From Methanoculleus formosensis (GTDB lineage: Archaea; Halobacteriota; Methanomicrobia; Methanomicrobiales; Methanoculleaceae): a stretch of 64,000 nucleotides of DNA. The translations under genes were made by a program, and so were the position numbers. Each line of letters begins with the position of its first letter. Position 1 is the first letter of the stretch. Below, piece by piece: positions 11,236 to 43,540 of this stretch. The notes beneath the pieces were generated by a model that was given only the letters and a program-made list of their open reading frames with translations, did not search any database and was not told the origin of the DNA. Location of the stretch: the NCBI RefSeq assembly GCF_025384765.1, contig NZ_VHLL01000001.1:310001-374000 (forward strand), in the 5' to 3' direction.

Positions 11236-11717
11236 GTGGTCTCACCTGCCGCTTGCCGCGCATCATCTTTTATCTGCGCCGCCCCGGTCATCTTCGCCCG
11301 TTTCTCCTCGAGGATCGAGAGCGCCGTAACAACGCCGTCGATGATCATCTCCGGCCGTGCCGCGCATCCCGGGACATAGACGTCGACGGGGATAATCTTG
11401 TCGACGCCGCCTGCGATGTTGTAGCATTCCCGGAATATGCCGCCGGTCGCGGCGCAGATGCCTATCGCAACGACAACCTTCGGCTCCGGCATCTGCTCGT
11501 AGAGGTTCCTGACCACCGCCCGGTTCAACTCATTGATCCCGCCGGTGATCATCAGGATATCCGCATGCTTCGGGTTTCCGGTGTTGATGATCCCGAACCG
11601 CTCCACATCGTAGAGCGGTGTCAGGCATGCAAGCACCTCGATGTCGCACCCGTTGCAGCTGGATGCATCATAGTGAAGGATCCAGGGCGATCGCTTCAGA
11701 AATGCCATGGTACTCAT
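11232..11717 (-). CDS. echC: Ech hydrogenase small subunit, EchC
   Basis: This 161-residue protein is the small electron-transfer subunit, homologous to NuoB. It has the cysteine pattern for the proximal [4Fe-4S] cluster: C21-x2-C24 (SSCNGCDIEVL), then GICAATGG and VPGCAARP. I chose the ATG at 11717 because it makes the four-base ATGA overlap with the echB stop and is preceded by GGGGGTG; an upstream ATG would extend 90 bases into echB. Confidence 0.94.
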   Translation of the reverse strand: MSTMAFLKRSPWILHYDASSCNGCDIEVLACLTPLYDVERFGIINTGNPKHADILMITGGINELNRAVVRNLYEQMPEPKVVVAIGICAATGGIFRECYNIAGGVDKIIPVDVYVPGCAARPEMIIDGVVTALSILEEKRAKMTGAAQIKDDARQAAGETT

Positions 11718-12574
11718 GCACCCCCAAGCATCATATAGGAGAGGATCGCCAGGTTCACGATCCCAAGGAGCGTTGCAAGCCACCCGCTCTTCAGTGCGGC
11801 CTGCCACCGCGCCCGTGCGGTGACGTTGTCGACGAAGATCTCCGCAAGGTAGGTGACCGCGACCGCGATGATCCCGAGTACCGGATTCCAGGCAAAGAAG
11901 AGGAATACGAACCCGAGGAGGAAGACGTTCTCGTACCAGTGGGCGATCTCGACCTGCGCGAGCGTGGAGCCCGAGAACTCCGTCGTGATCCCCTTGACGA
12001 TCTCCTGGTGCGCGTGGTGCGACGTCGATATGTCGAAGGGGGACTTCCTGAGTTTGATGGTCAGAATTACCACAAAGCCCAGGAAGACGCCGGGGAGGTA
12101 GAGGATCGCCGGCACGGTCGTCGTAACGATATCCGTGACGTAGAAACTCCCGCTGACCATGTAGAGCCCGACGGCCGCGAGGATGATCATCGGTTCGTAG
12201 GCCATCACCTGGATCAGTTCCCGCTCGGCCCCGATGTGGCTGTAGGGCGAGTGGACCGCGTAGGCCCCGAGCACCAGGAAGACATGGGCGAGCGTGAAGG
12301 CAAAGACGATCAGCAAGAGGTCCCCTCCCGCGAAGAAGAGCGCGCCGGAGAGGGCGATGAAGATCAGGTAAGCGAGGACGTAGAAGTTCTGCGCCGTGGT
12401 GACGACCGCCCGTTCCTTCTCGAAGAGCTTGCCGACATCGTAGAAGGGCTGCAGGAGCGGCGGCCCGACTCTTCCCTGCATCCGCGCGGTGATCTTCCGG
12501 TCGATACCGGCGATGAGGCCACCGCCTATGGGCGCGAGGATGAGGAAGAGGACTGCGCCGATGAGCCAGTTCAT
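11714..12574 (-). CDS. echB: Ech hydrogenase membrane subunit B (NuoH-like)
   Basis: This 286-residue integral membrane protein has about eight hydrophobic helices and matches EchB/NuoH/HyfC. Conserved stretches include GRVGPPLLQPFYDVGKLFEKE (about 35-55), typical of the NuoH quinone-site loop, and KSPFDISTSHHAHQEIVKG, with its acidic residues. It forms the heel that couples the redox arm to the ion-translocating subunit EchA. It overlaps echA by four bases and echC by four bases. Confidence 0.94.
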   Translation of the reverse strand: MNWLIGAVLFLILAPIGGGLIAGIDRKITARMQGRVGPPLLQPFYDVGKLFEKERAVVTTAQNFYVLAYLIFIALSGALFFAGGDLLLIVFAFTLAHVFLVLGAYAVHSPYSHIGAERELIQVMAYEPMIILAAVGLYMVSGSFYVTDIVTTTVPAILYLPGVFLGFVVILTIKLRKSPFDISTSHHAHQEIVKGITTEFSGSTLAQVEIAHWYENVFLLGFVFLFFAWNPVLGIIAVAVTYLAEIFVDNVTARARWQAALKSGWLATLLGIVNLAILSYMMLGGA

Positions 12575-18266: not shown

Positions 18267-19508
18267 TCAGGTGCTGCCCTTTACGGGAACCGTCTCTTCT
18301 CGATCCCGTGCAGGTTCGCAGACTTCCCCCTGCTCACGGCACTGCCCGGTCAGCAGGATCTCGACCTCGGTGCCCCCGGCGATACTCCCGGTTCCTCTCG
18401 GGACGTGCAGGCAGGCGTTTGCATGCACCAGCGCCATCTGCGGTCCGGCCCCCCGCGGCAGGGGGGTCGCGGCATACCCGTCGCCGGCCCGCGAGACGAT
18501 GATCTGGACGAACTCGTCGTAGCCGGGGTCCGCCGTGACCGTCCCGGCGAGCCGGGCGCGGAGGCGCTCTACCGGCGGGGGAGAGAATCCCCATGCCGCG
18601 AGCAGCGGGAGGGCGAGTTCCCGTGCGGCCGTCAGGGCGGCGATCGGGTAACCCGGGAGCCCGATGGCCGGTTTGCCGTCTATCCGGCCGACTATCGCCG
18701 GTACACCCGGTTTCATCGCGATGCCGCGGACGAGCACCTCCCCGAGTTCGCCGATGACGGTGGCGGTGAAGTCGCGCGTGCCTGCCGACGACCCGGCGGA
18801 GATCAGGAGCATATCGTTTTCATGGACGCCCCGCACGATGGCCTCCCGGAGCAGCACGGGATCGTCGCGGACGATTCCATAGCGGGTGCAGGTGGCGCCC
18901 GCCTCGCCGAGCAGTGCCGCGCTAACGGCGGTGTTGCTCTCGACAGCCCCTCCCGGGCCAGGGAGGCTTCCTGCCGGAACAAGTTCGCTCCCTGTTGGGA
19001 TGAGGCCGACCCTCACCTCCCGCACGTCCACTACGGTAAGCCCGCAGGAGAGGAGCGCCCCGATATCGCAGGGGCGTATCCGGTGCCCGGCCGGGAGGAT
19101 CAGGTCGCCCCGGCGGATCTCGGAGCCGGCAGGAAAGATATGCTCTCCCGGGAGCACCGCTCTCTTCGTGCTCCAGGTGCCGTCTCTCCCCGCGACATCC
19201 TCGATCATGACGACCGCATCGTAGCCGGGAGGGATCGCGTTCCCCGTGTTCACCCTGGAGGGGTTCCTGAGCGGGACGAGGTTCTCGCTACCCGCGGGGA
19301 CGGTCTCGCTGCTCACGACGGCAAACCCGTCTCTTGATGCGATGTCCTCTGCCGGGATCGTCAGGAATGAGGATACGGGCGCTGCCGTCACCCGTCCGGC
19401 AGCCCCGGCGACCGGGAGGGTGGCGATCCGGTCGGGGCACGGGAAGGCCGAGCGCATCATCGCCCGGACTTCTGCAAGCGGTTTCACTGCGAGGCGCCGC
19501 CTCATCAT
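18267..19508 (-). CDS. moeA: Molybdopterin molybdenumtransferase MoeA (paralog 1)
   Basis: This 413-residue MoeA-like protein would insert molybdate or tungstate into adenylylated molybdopterin. The family features are ASRDGFAV (the SxxDG motif near 58), GYDAVVMIEDV, VGLIPTGSELVPAG, the catalytic loop LLISAGSSAGTRD and GLPGYPIAAL. It closely resembles the N-terminal domain of the larger MoeA fusion at 60.9-62.8 kb and is less like the MoeA at 62.8-64 kb. It lies 60 bases behind fwdC, the cofactor-binding enzyme of methanogenesis, though a T7 run separates them. A role in the Mo/W-pterin of formylmethanofuran dehydrogenase is inferred from position. Confidence 0.9.
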   Translation of the reverse strand: MMRRRLAVKPLAEVRAMMRSAFPCPDRIATLPVAGAAGRVTAAPVSSFLTIPAEDIASRDGFAVVSSETVPAGSENLVPLRNPSRVNTGNAIPPGYDAVVMIEDVAGRDGTWSTKRAVLPGEHIFPAGSEIRRGDLILPAGHRIRPCDIGALLSCGLTVVDVREVRVGLIPTGSELVPAGSLPGPGGAVESNTAVSAALLGEAGATCTRYGIVRDDPVLLREAIVRGVHENDMLLISAGSSAGTRDFTATVIGELGEVLVRGIAMKPGVPAIVGRIDGKPAIGLPGYPIAALTAARELALPLLAAWGFSPPPVERLRARLAGTVTADPGYDEFVQIIVSRAGDGYAATPLPRGAGPQMALVHANACLHVPRGTGSIAGGTEVEILLTGQCREQGEVCEPARDREETVPVKGST

Positions 19509-19559
19509 GGCGTCATACCCATATCATCGCCTCTTCCCGGCGACACGGCCGCTTTTGCA

Positions 19560-19568
19560 TAAAAAAAG
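19560..19568 (-). terminator. U-tract terminator at the fwdC stop codon
   Basis: On the minus strand the fwdC stop TAA is followed by C and a run of seven T (19561-19567). This is a typical archaeal intrinsic terminator position and would reduce, but not necessarily abolish, read-through into moeA. Confidence 0.6.
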
Positions 19569-20369
19569 TTAGATCCGGGTGTAGATATTTGCATACACCG
19601 GCTTGCCCTTGGAGACCGGGTGGCGTTCGCCGAGATCCCCGATGTAGTGGGCGAAGCGCCCCTTCACACCGTCGACCTCCTGCTCCACCTCGCCGACCTT
19701 CTGGAATCCCGGGAGCGGGTTCTCGATCTCCCCGAAGACGTAGATGTCGCCTTTCACCATCTGTCCGCCGACACGGCCCTTCGCGTTGCCCTTGATAACA
19801 ACGGTGCCTCCTTCGCCGTGGGTGGAGACGTGGATATCCGCGTCGCCGCCGATGATGATCGTCCCGCCGTTGATGAACGTGGCGGTGTCGTTGCCGACGT
19901 TCCCGGCCACGCGGATCACTCCGCCCTGCATGCCGCGCCACTCGCCCCGGGGGGATGAGCCCAGGTGGTGATAGGCTTCTCCGTCGATGATGAGCTCGCC
20001 GCCTTCCATCCCGATGCCGCAGAACGAGTCGACGTTTCCTTTTACGTGGACTTTTCCGCCCTTCATCCAGCCGCCGATGTACATATCGGCGTCGCCTTCG
20101 ATGACGATCTCGCCGGCGGTCATCTGCTGTCCGACCCTTTTGACGCGGGTGCAGTCCCCGCAGAGGACGATCTTCGTCTCGGCCGCCGTCGCTCCGCCGT
20201 CACCTTCAACGGTGAAGTAGTTCCCGAGCGGCCCCTTCTGTTTGCCTTCCCAGACGTCGAGAGCAGCTATCTCGGCGGCTTTCTTGCCTGCGAAGTTATC
20301 CGGAGTGATGTTCTGTCCCTCGAGCATGAGCTCGGGGGGTTTGGTCAGGGTGAGGGTTACTGTCTTCAT
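19569..20369 (-). CDS. fwdC: Formylmethanofuran dehydrogenase subunit C
   Basis: This 266-residue subunit has the family's repetitive Gly-rich beta-helix, with units such as GGWMKGGKVHVKGNV, GIGMEGGELIIDGEA and GGQMVKGDIYVFGEI, related to the glutamate synthase alpha C-terminal domain. It packs against FwdA and FwdB in the complex that reduces CO2 and binds it to methanofuran. I chose the ATG at 20369, which has GAGGTGATG about seven bases upstream; in-frame GTG and ATG codons 9 and 12 bases earlier overlap that site. It is the last gene of fwdDBAC. Confidence 0.95.
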   Translation of the reverse strand: MKTVTLTLTKPPELMLEGQNITPDNFAGKKAAEIAALDVWEGKQKGPLGNYFTVEGDGGATAAETKIVLCGDCTRVKRVGQQMTAGEIVIEGDADMYIGGWMKGGKVHVKGNVDSFCGIGMEGGELIIDGEAYHHLGSSPRGEWRGMQGGVIRVAGNVGNDTATFINGGTIIIGGDADIHVSTHGEGGTVVIKGNAKGRVGGQMVKGDIYVFGEIENPLPGFQKVGEVEQEVDGVKGRFAHYIGDLGERHPVSKGKPVYANIYTRI

Positions 20370-20382
20370 TTTTCTCATCACC

Positions 20383-22095
20383 TCATTCTGTCGTATTGAC
20401 CTCGATCACCCGCGGGTTGTGGAGGTGTTCCTCGAAGAGGGAGTAGTTGTCAAGTTTCACACTGTAGTGCCGGAGGAAGTGCTCGTAGATGTCTCTCTGC
20501 ACCTGTGCGTTCTCCGGGACCTTCACGTCGACCCAGACCGTCCGCTTTGCGGGCTCCGCGACGACTTCTCCGCCCTGGACGGTCACGGTACCGTCCTTGA
20601 CAAGCCAGGCGCACCGGGAGAAGGCCTTCTCGATCTCTGCCGGGTCGGAGGGCATGTTCTCCGGGTTGAGGCCGTAGATAGCAATATCGGCATCCATGCC
20701 GGGGGCGAGGCCGCCGTAGGTGTTGCTGATGCCGAGCGCCTTTGCCGGCCCTGCACGGGTCATCTGGGCGATCTCGTAGAGCGTGAGTTCGCGGTCGATA
20801 CTGTCGATGGAGGTGGCGTCGATCGTCCGGTCAAGCCACTTGAACGTCTTCATCGTCTCGTCACGTGCGGCCCTGCTCATCAGCCAGGCGATGACCTGCG
20901 GGTAGCGGGTGAACGGCCCGGCGTTCGGGTGGTCGGTAGTGATGAACGTCCGCATCAAGTCCTTCGAGAAGAGGGCCAGTTCCAGGCCGACCGCCCACTG
21001 GATGGTGCAGACCTTGACGTTCGGGCTGTAGATGTAGGGGACGACGCCCGCGGCGGTCTCGAGTTCGACGTCGGTGTTCGCCCACTTCAGGTGGTTGAGG
21101 GAGCAGAGGTGGTGCTCGAACGGCCCGTCGGCGGTCATCGTGGTGGTCTCGTCGAGGGTCACCTGGCCGATATCGACGGTGATGTTGTCGTGGGCGTTGA
21201 CGTAGTCCATCACGTCTTTTGCCCGGGACTCGAAGTTCCCCCAGGAGTCGCCGCCGTAGGAGTGGAACTGCAGGTGCGTGAGGTGCAGCACCTGCTCGCG
21301 GCCGAAGTTGTTCTTCGGGGTGTAGCCCTCGGCGAGTCTGATCGAATCGAGCGTGTCGGTGTAGTTGCCGGGGTTGCCCAGGTTGTTGCAGTGCAGGTGC
21401 ACCGAGTGCGGGAGACCGAGGTGCTCGTTCGTTTCGATGAGGCCCTTGACGATCTGGGCCGGGGTGATGTCGAAGTAGGGAACCGGGTCGTTGATGTTGA
21501 CACAGTTCAGTCCCCATCCCCAGGCTTCGGATCCGCCGGGGTTGACGACCTTGATGCCGAACCCGCGGGTCGCCCGGAGAAGCCAGGCGGTGTACGCGGC
21601 GTTGTTCTCGATCTCGTTGTTCTTAAGATACTCGAGCGTGAACCAGTTGTTCCCGAAGACCGGCATCGCGGCGTTGTCGATGATCGGGGTATCCCGTATC
21701 TCCTCGTGGACGTGCGGGGAGTGGAGCGGGGGCATCGCCGCCTCGTTGACGAAGACGTAGCCCATCCGCGCGTAGTCGTAGCCGGTCTTGAACGTCGAGG
21801 GGACGGAGCAGCCCATCTCCATGCGGCTGCATGTAGGGGATTTGTGGGGGCTCTTGAAGAGTTTGTCCTCCGGCCGGAAGAGCCGGCCGACGTTCACCTT
21901 CGGCCCGACCACGTGGGAGTGAACATCCACGCCGCCCGCCATCACGGCCATGCCCGCAGCGTCGATCGTCTTCGGGGCGCTGAGGGTGCCCGCTTCGACG
22001 ATCTTTCCGTCCTTGACTCCGATATCCATGCGGTCGCCCTTGATCCCCTGCAGGGGGTCGAAGACGAACCCGTTCTTGATCAGTAGTTCTCCCAT
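20383..22095 (-). CDS. fwdA: Formylmethanofuran dehydrogenase subunit A
   Basis: This 570-residue amidohydrolase-type subunit carries a binuclear metal site: His59 and His61 (GVDVHSHVVG) and the Lys of GIKVVNPGG, the position that is carboxylated in family members. It condenses formate with methanofuran to formylmethanofuran, the second half-reaction of the complex; formate travels to it from FwdB through an internal channel (established for this family). A GGAGGAATAAAGC site precedes the ATG, which follows the fwdB stop by three bases. It lacks any membrane segment and is cytoplasmic. Confidence 0.96.
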   Translation of the reverse strand: MGELLIKNGFVFDPLQGIKGDRMDIGVKDGKIVEAGTLSAPKTIDAAGMAVMAGGVDVHSHVVGPKVNVGRLFRPEDKLFKSPHKSPTCSRMEMGCSVPSTFKTGYDYARMGYVFVNEAAMPPLHSPHVHEEIRDTPIIDNAAMPVFGNNWFTLEYLKNNEIENNAAYTAWLLRATRGFGIKVVNPGGSEAWGWGLNCVNINDPVPYFDITPAQIVKGLIETNEHLGLPHSVHLHCNNLGNPGNYTDTLDSIRLAEGYTPKNNFGREQVLHLTHLQFHSYGGDSWGNFESRAKDVMDYVNAHDNITVDIGQVTLDETTTMTADGPFEHHLCSLNHLKWANTDVELETAAGVVPYIYSPNVKVCTIQWAVGLELALFSKDLMRTFITTDHPNAGPFTRYPQVIAWLMSRAARDETMKTFKWLDRTIDATSIDSIDRELTLYEIAQMTRAGPAKALGISNTYGGLAPGMDADIAIYGLNPENMPSDPAEIEKAFSRCAWLVKDGTVTVQGGEVVAEPAKRTVWVDVKVPENAQVQRDIYEHFLRHYSVKLDNYSLFEEHLHNPRVIEVNTTE

Positions 22096-22098
22096 GCT

Positions 22099-23469
22099 TT
22101 ATTCCTCCGCGCGGATGCCCTGTGGGACGGCCTTCGCAGGCCCCTTCGCGGCCTCTTCCGCTTCCAGTTCGCCGAGCCGCTTGAAGATCCGCTCGAAGAC
22201 CTCCTCGTCGCTGAGAACGCCCTCGGGCGGGTCGATGACCTTGCGGTACTGGATCGGGACGTTGTCCATCCGATAGACGATGCCCGGAACCTCGACCCCG
22301 ACGATCCCTACCGGGATGTGGAGATCGGAGATCTCGCTCGCCATGCAGATGTTCGGGTCGATGGTGATCCAGGGGTGCTTCCGGAGGTGCTTGACCGCCT
22401 CGATCGGGAAATGTGCACCGGCGTCCGTCCCTATGTTGATGAAGGCATCCACCTCGTCACGCATGGCAAGGTCGATGGAACTCGTCTCGCCGGGGTTCAT
22501 GTAGGCGATGTCCTTCTTCGTCAGGTCGAGACAGTAGGGGTAGCCGAACTGCCATGACCAGACCGCGCCCGGCCCGGTGATGTTGTAGTGACCCCGCATC
22601 GCCATGATCGTCCACTTGGTGAAGTCGTTTAAGTCGCGGGTCATGCTGATGGCGATGTCCACGTTATGGTTCCGGCCGTCGGAGTGGCAGAGTCCCATCC
22701 CGTAGAAGATGGTGCCGAACCGGGCCTTCTTCATGATCTCGGCGACCTCGAGGATCTGTTCGCGCTTGATCCCGGCAACCTCGGCGGGGATTTCATGGCC
22801 GCGGAGGGCGGTGCGGAACGCGTTGAAGAGGTCGTAGTCGTGCCCCTGCTTCACCTGCAGGTAGATATCCGCCACCTGGGCGGTGTCGGTGTGCCTCGGA
22901 TCGATGACGATGATCTTGCGGCTCTTGTGGCCCTTCCCTGTGAAGAAGCCGCGGGGGAAGATCGAGTAGCGGGACATGTGCCGCGGGTGGGCGTGTGCCG
23001 GGTTTGCGCCCCAGTAGACGATGACATCCGCCCGGTTCTTCGTCTCGCCGAGGGTGCAGCTCGGGTAGCCGTTGTCGAATATCGCAAGGAACGAGGATCC
23101 GTGGCAGATAGACGCACAGTTGTCGAGGACGGCGCCCGCTCTCTCAGCAACCTTGGCCGCGGCGGCCATGCCCTCACAGTTGGTCGACCCGAACCCGTAG
23201 ATCAGGGGCTTCTTCGCATTGTAGAGGACTTTCGCTGCGTAATCGATCGCCTCGTCGTAGGAGATATCCTTATAGGTGCCGTCCGGCTGGCGGAGGCGGG
23301 GTAACTGAATCCTCTTGCCGCGCGTCGCGTGGTGGAAGATCTCGTTCCCGATAGCGCAGGCGTTCTCCACCTCGAGGATCTTCTTTCCGTCGTCCGATAC
23401 GGTCACGACAAGGTCGTCACAGCAGACGCCGCAGTATGGGCATCCGACGTTCTCAACTTTCTTTGGCAT
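22099..23469 (-). CDS. fwdB: Formylmethanofuran dehydrogenase subunit B (Mo/W-pterin catalytic subunit)
   Basis: This 456-residue protein is the catalytic subunit that reduces CO2 to formate at a Mo or W bis-pterin site. The N-terminus has the cysteines for a [4Fe-4S] cluster (Cys10, Cys13, Cys16/17 and Cys38). The metal ligand is expected at Cys118 (DNCASICHG), where some methanogens have selenocysteine; TGC here shows a Cys form. The start ATG shares its A with the TAA stop of fwdD (TAATG), a translational coupling signal. No fwdE, F, G or H gene is in the window, so the ferredoxin-type partners must lie elsewhere. Confidence 0.96.
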   Translation of the reverse strand: MPKKVENVGCPYCGVCCDDLVVTVSDDGKKILEVENACAIGNEIFHHATRGKRIQLPRLRQPDGTYKDISYDEAIDYAAKVLYNAKKPLIYGFGSTNCEGMAAAAKVAERAGAVLDNCASICHGSSFLAIFDNGYPSCTLGETKNRADVIVYWGANPAHAHPRHMSRYSIFPRGFFTGKGHKSRKIIVIDPRHTDTAQVADIYLQVKQGHDYDLFNAFRTALRGHEIPAEVAGIKREQILEVAEIMKKARFGTIFYGMGLCHSDGRNHNVDIAISMTRDLNDFTKWTIMAMRGHYNITGPGAVWSWQFGYPYCLDLTKKDIAYMNPGETSSIDLAMRDEVDAFINIGTDAGAHFPIEAVKHLRKHPWITIDPNICMASEISDLHIPVGIVGVEVPGIVYRMDNVPIQYRKVIDPPEGVLSDEEVFERIFKRLGELEAEEAAKGPAKAVPQGIRAEE

Positions 23470-23882
23470 TATTGATCACCTCTCCACATACCGACGGCCC
23501 CCTGAACGAGTTCGAGCGCACTCTTGCGCCGCTCACCGTTCGCCGGCTCGACCGTCACAGGAAAACCGCTGTACTGGGGTTCCCCGGTCGCCTGGGTTCT
23601 CGGGGGAACGATCTGGTTCGCCCAGACGCCCTGCGGGATGAATGCAAGGCCGGGATAGAGCGACTGGCGCCCCTTGACGACCTTGACGATCACGGTTCCG
23701 CATTCACTTGTTACTTTTACCAGCTGGTTCGGAACCAGCCCGAGCGTCCTGACGTCGTCGTCGTGCATCTCGATGATCGAGCAGGCCTCGAAGTATTCCG
23801 GGGTCGTTTTGCCCTTTTCCATCGCAACGCCTTCTTCGATGGAGCGCTGGGTGATCATGTTCAATGTAATTCTGTTCGCCAT
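23469..23882 (-). CDS. fwdD: Formylmethanofuran dehydrogenase subunit D
   Basis: This 137-residue protein is related to the C-terminal pterin-binding domain of formate dehydrogenases and supplies part of the cofactor pocket to FwdB (family knowledge). It starts MANRITLNMITQRS at the ATG at 23882, preceded by GAGGCAT; an ATG 81 bases upstream opens a longer frame that is not family-like and lies in a structured leader. It is the first gene of the operon fwdDBAC, whose leader is about 215 bases long. Confidence 0.93.
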   Translation of the reverse strand: MANRITLNMITQRSIEEGVAMEKGKTTPEYFEACSIIEMHDDDVRTLGLVPNQLVKVTSECGTVIVKVVKGRQSLYPGLAFIPQGVWANQIVPPRTQATGEPQYSGFPVTVEPANGERRKSALELVQGAVGMWRGDQ

Positions 23883-24098
23883 GGTTATGCCTCGATGTAG
23901 TTGGAATGGCCGGTCCCCCGGTTCTCGTGGGGCCGGCCAGATGGGGTGCGGTAACCCAGGCAACGCCCATTATCGGGTACCCCGATTTTGGAGGATCTGC
24001 CAGGATTCTCCATACCCGGCAAGCAGAGCCTTGCGATATGGTGGGATCCTGCTCGCCCGGGAAAACGAAACACCCGGGCGGAGCGCCGGGATGATCGT
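23883..24098 (-). promoter_or_regulatory. fwdD: Long structured leader of fwdDBAC
   Basis: If transcription starts about 25 bases from the TATA-like TTAAATACAAA (24119-24130, minus strand), the leader is about 215 bases. It contains three inverted repeats: GGCCGG(T)CCCC / GGGGCCGGCC at 23908-23938, ATCGGG-TAC-CCCGAT at 23972-23986, and GGAGGATC / GATTCTCC at 23990-24011. The first lies 26 bases before the fwdD ATG. This suggests RNA-level control or a ligand-binding leader, but no known riboswitch class matches. Confidence 0.35.
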
Positions 24099-24344
24099 TT
24101 TGTCATAACTTGTAATGATTTGTATTTAACAATTCCGCATTTACAATTAACTCAAGGTTACGAGATTTACATCGTGGTGTTTGAAACCAGTTTTTTTTGA
24201 CCTGCCGCGAAAATCCTCGATGTGTTGCAGGTCGCCGCGAGACGGGGGTCGCACGCAGGGTGGCGGGAGAGGGGTATGCCGCCTTCATCGTCCGGAAGAG
24301 GCGGGTTACTGGGGCACTATATAGTTGCTCTCTTTCTATCTCCG

Positions 24345-24848: not shown

Positions 24849-26153
24849 ATGGCTAAATACACGGAAACAATCGATCTCTATTCTGATGACGGGAAGCTGC
24901 TCAAGAGCGGCGTCACCCTCGACAGAATCAGCCCGCTGGTTAACCCGGCCACAGGTAAGATCATCGACCTGACCAAGAGAACGATCAGCGTAAACCTTGG
25001 CGGCATCCAGGATGCGCTCAAGGTCGGCAAGCTTGGAAAGGGCAAGATCAAGGGAAGAGAACTCGATCTCCCCATCATGGAGAACAAGGACGCGATCGTT
25101 GCCAAGATCAAGGAGATGATCCAGGTCACCGAGGGCGACGACACCGAGATCCTGGAGTTCAACGGCGGCAAGCTCCTGCTCGTCCAGGTCCCGACGAAGC
25201 GCCTGGTCAACGCGTCCACCTACGACGCCGCGATCACCTCGGTTGCAGCCGCGACCACCTTCTCGATCGTCGACCAGTTCAACGTCGACGCCTTCAATGC
25301 ATCCACCGTCAAGGCGGCCTGCTGGGGCAGCTACCCCCACACGCAGGACATGGAAGGCGCGCTTGTCACGTCGATCCTGACGATCCCCCAGAACAACGAG
25401 GGTATCGGCTACGCGCTCAGGAACATCCCGGTCAACCACACCGTCATGATGACCGGCAGGAACGCCCTGCAGGGTGCAGCACTCGCATCCACCCTCGAGA
25501 CCGCCGGTATCTTCGAGATGGGATCCGCGGTCGGGCCGTTCGAGCGCGCCCAGCTCCTCGCCTACGCTTACCAGGGCCTGAACGCGAACAACATGGTCTA
25601 CGACCTCGTCAAGGCGAACGGCCAGACCGGCACCGTCGGCACCGTCGTCCAGAGCCTGGTCGAGCGCGCCATCGAGGACAAGGTCATCGCTCCGGGCAAG
25701 AAGGGCGGGTACTTCCAGTTCTACGACACGAAGGACCCGATGCTCTGGAACGCCTACGCCGCTGCAGGAACCATGGCAGCCACCATCGTCAACTGTGGTG
25801 CCGGACGGTTCGCCCAGGCGGTCTCCGCGACGCTCCTCTACTTCAACGACCTGCTCGAGCACGAGACCGGTCTCCCGAGCACCGACTACGGCCGTGTCAT
25901 GGGTACCGCCGTCGGGTTCTCGTTCTTCAGCCACTCGATCTACGGTGGTGGCGGCCCCGGTATCTTCAACGGCAACCACGTCGTGACCCGACACGCAAAC
26001 GGTGTGGCTATCCCGTGCGTGGTCGCCGCAGCGGCACTCGACGCCGGAACGCAGATGTTCTCGCCCGAGAGCACCTCCAAGCTCTTCGCCGACACCTACG
26101 GTAAGATCGACGTCTTCAACAAGCCGATCGACCAGATCGCCAACGGAGCCTGA
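24849..26153 (+). CDS. mcrB: Methyl-coenzyme M reductase beta subunit
   Basis: This 434-residue beta subunit (A2B2G2 complex) helps form the F430 pocket that converts methyl-CoM and CoB to methane and the heterodisulfide. It has the family start MAKYTETIDLYSDDGKLL and the conserved C-terminal half with GFSFFSHSIYGGGGPGIFNGNHVVTRH, which lines the substrate channel. The length is normal for the family. An AAGGATG stretch precedes the ATG. It is the first gene of mcrBDGA; mcrC, present between D and G in many methanogens, is missing here. Confidence 0.98.
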   Translation: MAKYTETIDLYSDDGKLLKSGVTLDRISPLVNPATGKIIDLTKRTISVNLGGIQDALKVGKLGKGKIKGRELDLPIMENKDAIVAKIKEMIQVTEGDDTEILEFNGGKLLLVQVPTKRLVNASTYDAAITSVAAATTFSIVDQFNVDAFNASTVKAACWGSYPHTQDMEGALVTSILTIPQNNEGIGYALRNIPVNHTVMMTGRNALQGAALASTLETAGIFEMGSAVGPFERAQLLAYAYQGLNANNMVYDLVKANGQTGTVGTVVQSLVERAIEDKVIAPGKKGGYFQFYDTKDPMLWNAYAAAGTMAATIVNCGAGRFAQAVSATLLYFNDLLEHETGLPSTDYGRVMGTAVGFSFFSHSIYGGGGPGIFNGNHVVTRHANGVAIPCVVAAAALDAGTQMFSPESTSKLFADTYGKIDVFNKPIDQIANGA

Positions 26154-41947: not shown

Positions 41948-43540
41948 TCACCTGACCTTTCCGAATTCCGTGCTCACGTCTGCGGCCGACCGGTAAGTCC
42001 GGTCGGAGAAGGTCTCGATAGCCGAAATAACTTCCTCTGGAGCGTTGTTCTTCCGGGCCTGGGCGACGATCTCCTGCCTTCCTGCCGGGTAGTCCATGCC
42101 CTTGAGGTAGACCTGCAGGTCTGCGGCGGAGAGACGGGTGTGGGACGGTACTGTCCTCCTTGCCGCGGGGCCCTCCTCGACCTGGGTTTCAGGCCGGACC
42201 ATCTGCTCTCTCCTGGCCTCCTCCGTGGTGATCCCGGGCTCCCGCCGCGTCTCCATCGTAGTCGACTGCTCCCCGCGGGCCTCTCTCCCGAACTCCGTGC
42301 TCACATCGGCGGCCGACTGGTATGTCCGGTCAGAGAAACCCTCTATAGACGAAATGACTTCCTGCGGTGCGTTGTTCCCCCTGGCATGGGTTACGAGATC
42401 CTGCCTCCCTGCCGGGTAGTCCATGCCCTTGAGGTAGACCTGCAGGTCGGCCGCAGAGAGACGGGTGCGGGGGGGTACCGTTCTCCGGGTCGTGGGTGCC
42501 TCCTCGCGGACCTCCGCCACGGTAGTCTCGCGAACCTCCCGTGCAGGCACCTCGATCCCGGTCGGCTGCCGGGTTCGGGACTCGCTGCCGAACTCCGCGC
42601 TCACATCTGCGGCCGACCGGTAGGTCCGGTCGGAGAAGCCCTCGAGTGTCGTGATCACGCTCTCCGGAGCACTGTTCTTCTGGGCGTGGGTTATGAGGTC
42701 CTGCCTCCCCGCCGGGTAGTCCATGCCCTTGAGGTAAACCTGAAGGTCGGCAGCCGAGAGGCGCCCGGCGGAAGGCCCGGGAGTCATAAGCGATCGTTCG
42801 AGTCCTGTTGCCGGCCGGGCTGCCGGGGGTGCCTCCATCGCGGTCGCCGGCTCTCTCCGGGCCTCCTCGACGACGGTCTCACGGGGCGGCGTCTCGACGA
42901 TGCGCTCCCGGTGAACCTCCCTGACGCCGGTCCCCGTGGGTGGCGGCCCCTCCGTCATCACCGGCCGCTCCTCGACACGCTGTGTCGTCGGCTGCCCTCC
43001 CCATCCGGCTGCGACCGTCTGGACGGGCGGCGGTGTCGGAACGACCCTCTCTCCTGCAGGGGACGTGGTCTCTGCCGGCGCCACGGTCTCCGCCGCCCGG
43101 GACGGCGGAACCTCCCTCTCCGTCACCGGGGCCGCGGGTCTCGCTGCCGTTGCCGTTGCTGCCGCCGCACGTGCCGGGGGGGGTGTCCGGACCAGGCTCC
43201 AGTCCGCCTCGCGCGGCATCCTGTCCCGGGAAAACCCCTGAGCGTTATCCAGCGTCCGCTTATCCGCGTCCACGGTAGCACTCCTCTCCCCCGCGCGGGT
43301 GCGGACCGCCTCCCAGGGGATGGCGAAATGCTTCTCGCCGAACCCGAGGATTCCGCCATAAGAGAGCACGGCATACGCGACGCGGCCGCTGTCGCGGTCC
43401 AGTACGACATCGCTGATATCGCCGAGGTTCTCTCCCTGTGGGTTTCGCACCTTGATGTCCCGGATGTCGTGTGCACGCATCAGGTTCACCCTCTCTTCCT
43501 GCCGGGTCTCCAGCACTGTTCCTGCCTGCTGATCAGCCAT
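41948..43540 (-). CDS. PRC-barrel protein with three DUF2795 repeats
   Basis: This 530-residue protein begins with a PRC-barrel domain (about 20-95), followed by a long Pro/Ala/Thr-rich disordered region, and three DUF2795 units of about 60 residues (about 255-320, 355-415 and 468-530) joined by Glu/Arg-rich linkers. Each starts LSAADLQVYLKGMDYPAGRQ and ends DRTYxSAADVSxEFG. DUF2795 is a small helical domain of unknown role in bacteria and archaea. GGAGGGAGAT precedes the ATG at 43540. The repeated architecture suggests multivalent binding, perhaps DNA or envelope, but this is not shown. Confidence 0.85.
   Translation of the reverse strand: MADQQAGTVLETRQEERVNLMRAHDIRDIKVRNPQGENLGDISDVVLDRDSGRVAYAVLSYGGILGFGEKHFAIPWEAVRTRAGERSATVDADKRTLDNAQGFSRDRMPREADWSLVRTPPPARAAAATATAARPAAPVTEREVPPSRAAETVAPAETTSPAGERVVPTPPPVQTVAAGWGGQPTTQRVEERPVMTEGPPPTGTGVREVHRERIVETPPRETVVEEARREPATAMEAPPAARPATGLERSLMTPGPSAGRLSAADLQVYLKGMDYPAGRQDLITHAQKNSAPESVITTLEGFSDRTYRSAADVSAEFGSESRTRQPTGIEVPAREVRETTVAEVREEAPTTRRTVPPRTRLSAADLQVYLKGMDYPAGRQDLVTHARGNNAPQEVISSIEGFSDRTYQSAADVSTEFGREARGEQSTTMETRREPGITTEEARREQMVRPETQVEEGPAARRTVPSHTRLSAADLQVYLKGMDYPAGRQEIVAQARKNNAPEEVISAIETFSDRTYRSAADVSTEFGKVR
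41950..42136 (-). repeat. DUF2795 coding repeat, C-terminal copy of the longer gene
   Basis: DNA copy encoding the last DUF2795 unit, with the phrase TGCTCACGTCTGCGGCCGAC and the CTGCCGGGTAGTCCATGCCC motif shared with the other copies. Confidence 0.75.
42280..42470 (-). repeat. DUF2795 coding repeat, middle copy
   Basis: Middle DNA copy in the longer gene. It shares the CTGCCGGGTAGTCCATGCCC motif and most of the domain sequence with the flanking copies. Confidence 0.75.
42585..42770 (-). repeat. DUF2795 coding repeat, N-terminal copy
   Basis: First DNA copy in the longer gene, with the same core motif as the other two. Its linker towards the PRC-barrel is the longest. Confidence 0.75.

Follow-up and report, generated by a model that had tools for sequence, protein, structure and literature searches.

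A genus-restricted leader with excess predicted structure before the Methanoculleus fwdDBAC(-moeA) operon, a candidate 5' UTR acting on translation and/or mRNA stability

CO2 enters hydrogenotrophic methane formation through the reaction of formylmethanofuran dehydrogenase, the genes of which lie on the minus strand of the window (i.e., the whole 64-kb stretch of Methanoculleus formosensis DNA analyzed here) in the order fwdD-B-A-C-moeA. The NCBIfam models TIGR03129, TIGR03121 and TIGR03122 match fwdB, fwdA and fwdC above their cut-offs, and the last gene of the operon, which is moeA-like (18267–19508), has MoeA-type NCBIfam matches below cut-off. Among named sequences, those closest to the window's FwdD are from Methanoculleus species. 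On the opposite strand the mcr operon begins at 24849, and thus the fwd and mcr operons diverge from one intergenic region. The fwdD ATG (23880–23882) is preceded by a leader of about 215–224 nt, with the following arrangement:

18267–23469, minus strand: fwdB, fwdA, fwdC and the moeA-like gene, on the same strand as fwdD, with short gaps
23469–23882, minus strand: fwdD, the first operon gene (NCBIfam FwdD family match at E 7e-25, below cut-off)
23883–24106, minus strand: 5' leader of fwdD as placed by promoter spacing, present in all 28 sequences analyzed
23890–23893, minus strand: Shine-Dalgarno (SD) sequence GAGG of fwdD, conserved in all 28 leaders
24122–24129, minus strand: fwd promoter, TATA box TTAAATAC directly preceded by a BRE-like GGAAT

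No TATA-like sequence was found within the leader, TTAAATAC being the sole TATA-like box, and TTAAATA at this position followed by an ATG 23–24 nt downstream is kept in 28/28 leaders. Given the box at 24122–24129 and the TATA-to-start spacing published for methanogens (19–22 nt in PMC5378194; 20–30 nt in PMC2838876), the start can be estimated at 24098–24106. Judged from these sequence features, the fwdDBAC(-moeA) mRNA is made from a single conserved promoter far upstream of fwdD; a start close to fwdD, which the first-pass annotation had set against its own proposal of a long leader, is not what was found. A second match to the combined fwd promoter pattern was not found in the same genome. 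Conserved across the genus between 24110 and 24175 (minus strand) are TTACAA-like words on either side of the TATA box and TGTAA words upstream of it, which might constitute a regulator site. The ATG at the expected start site (24106, minus strand) is itself unchanged in all 28 leaders, and the frame that it opens begins M(T/I)KRS(A/V/I)RCSAR in many species. An upstream ORF from this ATG was rejected: it stops within four codons in three species (L021, L024, L026), and hence the frame is not a conserved peptide; the differences in leader length also include non-multiples of three.

The 28 leaders (L001–L027 and L035) come from 27 Methanoculleus genomes, including the source genome, and one MAG contig; one further matching genome (L028) ends at a contig edge and was left out. 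The leader is present in 28/28 cases where the sequence before a close fwdD ortholog could be read, and by DNA search in 27 of the 34 other Methanoculleus genomes examined and in 0/26 genomes outside the genus. Among the seven Methanoculleus genomes without it, six carry only FwdD paralogs at 47–49% identity and in the seventh no FwdD was detected; their fwd operons have apparent coding sequence directly upstream, as do the two paralogous fwd operons of the source genome. The leader and the close fwdD ortholog co-occur across the genus. A covariance model built on the P2-to-ATG part of the leader (helices are named below) gave no convincing second copy in the source genome (next best E 0.3), and among 150 genomes of the order it matched only Methanoculleus and the MAG G133, whose strong match coincides in coordinates and score with that of the L035 contig and whose second match is marginal (E 0.008). 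L035 itself (MAG BL5_bin.12) is a Methanoculleus-like contig in a genome assigned to another family and is probably mis-binned. Methanoculleus sp. FWC-SCC1 (L050), with an FwdD at 81% identity, keeps a similar fwd promoter; its leader, about 300 bases before 2501, is also long and GC-rich and is of unrelated sequence.

Conservation along the leader is uneven. It is highest in the promoter plus the leader's first 60 nt, which are mostly 80–93% identical even where the middle fails to align, and in the last 70 nt. The middle varies, such that overall length ranges from 159 to 291 nt among the 28 leaders with both ends conserved, and a central domain is absent from four of them (L016, L019, L021, L027). 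Amid this variable middle, GGAGCACC is conserved in L010–L026, about 70–76 nt before fwdD.

RNAalifold applied to the window's clade (L001–L008, group 1) predicts P1, P2, P3, a P4/P5 arm with P6 and P7, and P8:

24063–24100, minus strand: P1, the conserved 5' hairpin AAACGA...TCGTTT, with inner CATCC...GGGTG
24058–24062, minus strand: P2 5' strand, a potential anti-Shine-Dalgarno, TCCCG here and CCTCG in five sister species
24018–24057, minus strand: P3 hairpin GGCGAGCAG...CTGCTTGCC, from RNAalifold of group 1
23944–24017, minus strand: P4/P5 arm (GGGTATGG/CCGCACCC; AATCCTGGCA/TGCCTGGGTT)
23980–23993 and 23966–23977, minus strand: P6 and P7, respectively, borne on the P4/P5 arm
23907–23939, minus strand: P8 hairpin TGGCCGG...CCGGCCA before the SD, the third stem of the first-pass annotation

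In P1, whose sequence is kept in nearly all 28 leaders, 91.7% of cells are paired and one pair is seen as A-U, G-U and G-C; in P3, 87% of cells are paired and two pairs show double changes. P8 can be made out, with changes in its pairs, in almost all of the 28 leaders; taken alone, its covariation is not significant in an R-scape-like test. The word TCCGCCCGG occurs as a direct repeat of two copies in P1 (24073–24093) of the window's sister species (group 1), and L011 lacks 12 nt in this repeat region, i.e., about one repeat unit. The P1 loop GGTGCTCC is complementary to GGAGCACC in the distant species or to CGGAGTACC in the window's sisters, with Watson-Crick runs of at least 7 in 10 leaders where 1.5 would be expected. 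The sites differ between the two groups and no compensating changes are seen, for which reason this alternative pairing is only a lead; a long-range or alternative pairing of the loop with GGAGCACC is possible on the basis of this complementarity.

The fold so drawn overlaps only in part with the three stem-loops noted from the sequence earlier. All three are physically there: the inverted repeat ATCGGG/CCCGAT (23972–23977 and 23981–23986) exactly as described, GGAGGATC/GATTCTCC (23990–23997 and 24004–24011), which as RNA has a single C-A mismatch, and the GC-rich stem 23907–23939, which ends about 13 nt before the SD. Only the third, P8, is conserved. The ATCGGG/CCCGAT hairpin is particular to the window's species, and the GGAGAATC/GATCCTCC hairpin, which competes with the better conserved P5, is disrupted in L006, L008 and L009, while the conserved P1 had been missed. 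The conserved set consists instead of P1, P3–P7 and P8.

Several lines of evidence bear on whether this structure exceeds chance. The leader taken as 224 nt has an MFE of −97.5 kcal/mol, and a slightly different 233-nt stretch reaches −100.2 with z = −3.2 against dinucleotide shuffles, a z equaled or undercut by 2/160 same-size windows of the 64 kb; by raw energy, 42/160 such windows are equally stable. This z, along with the limits set by the TATA box, fits the long structured leader of about 215 bases proposed earlier. Across L001–L009 the structure z ranges from −2.5 to −5.7, and the four leaders without the central domain show little or no excess structure. In a sequence-based alignment of 17 full-length leaders, 87.0% of cells pair as against 35–53% for slid partners, and 13 pairs change on both sides versus 8.4 ± 1.7 after shuffling. 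Under a tree-aware null with independent columns, the expectations are 79.1 ± 1.9% paired cells (0/1000 simulations as high) and 7.6 ± 2.1 double-change pairs (P 0.014), both results being inflated because the structure was picked on the same sequences. A test free of this choice compares the RNAalifold energy with that of tree-simulated alignments: for the window's clade plus L009 it is −154.2 against −118.5 ± 5.8 (0/100). This null is sensitive to the root sequence from which it starts, reconstructions of which range in energy from −82 to −106. With the most stable of 150 such roots, 1/120 simulations match the clade plus L009 and 11/120 match when L009 is left out. Applied to the more distant species, the test gives no significant result (17/60).

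Single-pair covariation is sparser. In an unbiased sequence alignment no pair falls below E 0.1 in the R-scape-like test; the best pair, in P5, reaches E 0.006 in the full-length subset and 0.13 with all sequences, both in an alignment fitted to the covariance model, and on held-out species a covariance model does not consistently outperform one based on sequence alone. Within the window's clade, 50 cells are G-U against 20 A-C, an excess that favours an RNA read from the leader strand. Taken together, these observations make it very likely that the multi-helix fold exists in the window's clade, to which the claim is confined. The compensating changes anticipated for the stems in relatives are seen within the window's own clade.

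With respect to translation, P2 would pair a 5' CCUCG with the SD-containing CGAGG. The P2-SD pairing probability is 0.88–0.97 in five sister species, L004 (M. sediminis) to L008, and in these and L012 the SD is predicted to be covered by CCTC, with an unpaired probability of 0.02–0.05. In the window, P2 has a C-A mismatch and the SD, with an unpaired probability of 0.50, is about half exposed; P2 is disrupted also in its nearest relatives, L002 and L003, and the predicted exposure is variable in the other species. Averaged over species, the unpaired probability is 0.37, no lower than the 0.30 obtained when the upstream sequence is shuffled. Because the SD is half exposed in the window, the others vary and the mean is no lower, a universal SD-hiding switch is not supported. 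No terminator-like U run was seen in the leader sequence.

On balance, the leader is best modeled as a lineage-specific structured 5' UTR of the Methanoculleus fwdDBAC(-moeA) operon acting on translation and/or mRNA stability, a reading that we favour with some reserve. It would fold into the 5' hairpin P1, the multi-helix domain P3–P7 and P8 just before the SD, and its effect would be exerted post-transcriptionally in cis, on translation initiation, mRNA stability or both. In several sister species, P2 would close this fold and cover the SD. The leader thereby probably tunes the amount of enzyme made; both the transcription of the drawn fold and its regulatory role are our inferences. Any trigger may be a protein, a small RNA, temperature or a ligand, or there may be none. 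Such a leader would be of an ordinary kind and a new member of it, and the chance that it is more than that is modest. Post-transcriptional control of the CO2-entry step has been little studied, and a conserved structured leader in a genus common in digesters would offer a concrete place to seek RNA-level control of methanogenesis.

Parallels exist in other methanogens. In Methanolobus psychrophilus, 24% of mRNAs have a 5' UTR of >150 nt and SD masking has been proposed (PMC5378194), and energy-gene promoters of Methanosarcina acetivorans give leaders of 51–137 nt (PMC2838876). The fwd leader resembles these in running well over 50–100 nt before energy-metabolism genes, with a TATA box about 20–30 nt before the start; SD masking, proposed for some of them, is predicted for the fwd leader in some sister species. 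Unlike the Methanosarcina UTRs, among which no conserved regions were seen in the comparison made (PMC2838876), it is conserved across its genus with a defined, predicted multi-helix fold.

The nearest competitor to a regulatory 5' UTR is a passive one, structured in a manner that protects or insulates the mRNA and answering no signal. The fast turnover of the middle between conserved ends, and structure without a conserved core, are what such a leader might display, and long leaders aid mta transcript stability in a cold-adapted methanogen according to work cited in PMC5378194. Yet a passive leader would not require the strong sequence conservation of P1 or the covering of the SD in some sisters, and we consider it rather unlikely. 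Were it only passive, the leader would still serve to illustrate how lineage-specific 5' UTRs evolve in archaea.

A riboswitch is less probable again. Some translational riboswitches cover the SD, and the Moco RNA motif is a bacterial molybdenum cofactor riboswitch found before molybdenum-enzyme or cofactor-synthesis genes. In the form considered here, a metabolite or oxyanion (Mo, W, molybdopterin, methanofuran or formyl-methanofuran) would bind at the P2-closed junction, stabilise P2 and hide the SD, as could befit the fold of L004–L008, which resembles a junction with the SD in its closing helix, and an operon encoding a Mo/W enzyme along with a moeA-like gene. Like the Moco RNA motif, the leader precedes molybdenum-enzyme genes, and like translational riboswitches its predicted closing helix contains the SD in five sister species; unlike the former, it is confined to one archaeal genus and has no cmscan match to E 5, and unlike the latter, it has no conserved aptamer core and its P2 is not intact in the window's species, L002 or L003. 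The search of Rfam 15 covariance models with cmscan placed no family at the gathering cut-off on the leader region, with no riboswitch family among the matches up to E 5, which bears out the earlier statement that no known class fits; literature searches brought up no publication on riboswitches of Methanoculleus or on leaders of fwd operons. The accompanying suggestion, that molybdate, tungstate, pterin or a pathway product is sensed, fares poorly: in the genomes searched, the element precedes this operon alone and is restricted to Methanoculleus, the central domain is absent from four leaders, and no aptamer-type core of conserved unpaired bases was found, a highly conserved core across distant species being a feature expected of riboswitches. 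We therefore regard ligand binding at the junction as improbable, and marginally more doubtful still is the broader version, a new archaeal riboswitch-like element whose SD-hiding junction would answer Mo/W, a pterin cofactor or a C1 intermediate and would be degenerating or retuned in some species.

Comparably improbable is a DNA site, e.g., an operator over the start site spanning about −65 to +45, with P1 as a by-product of repeats and the remainder drifting. It would suit the promoter and first 60 nt being the best conserved part and the direct repeat in group 1, but leaves the preserved P3–P8 stems of the window's clade and the G-U excess unexplained, and the P1 pair is kept as A-U/G-U/G-C. 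Chance folding of a GC-rich, weakly constrained leader through its composition, despite the unexceptional raw stability (42/160) and the weak signal outside the window's clade, is very hard to reconcile with a z of −3.2, reached by only 2/160 windows, and with structure preserved under the tree-aware nulls in the clade.

Elsewhere in the 64 kb, the windows 42401–42624 and 11601–11824 have structure z-scores below −3.5 (one random strand each).
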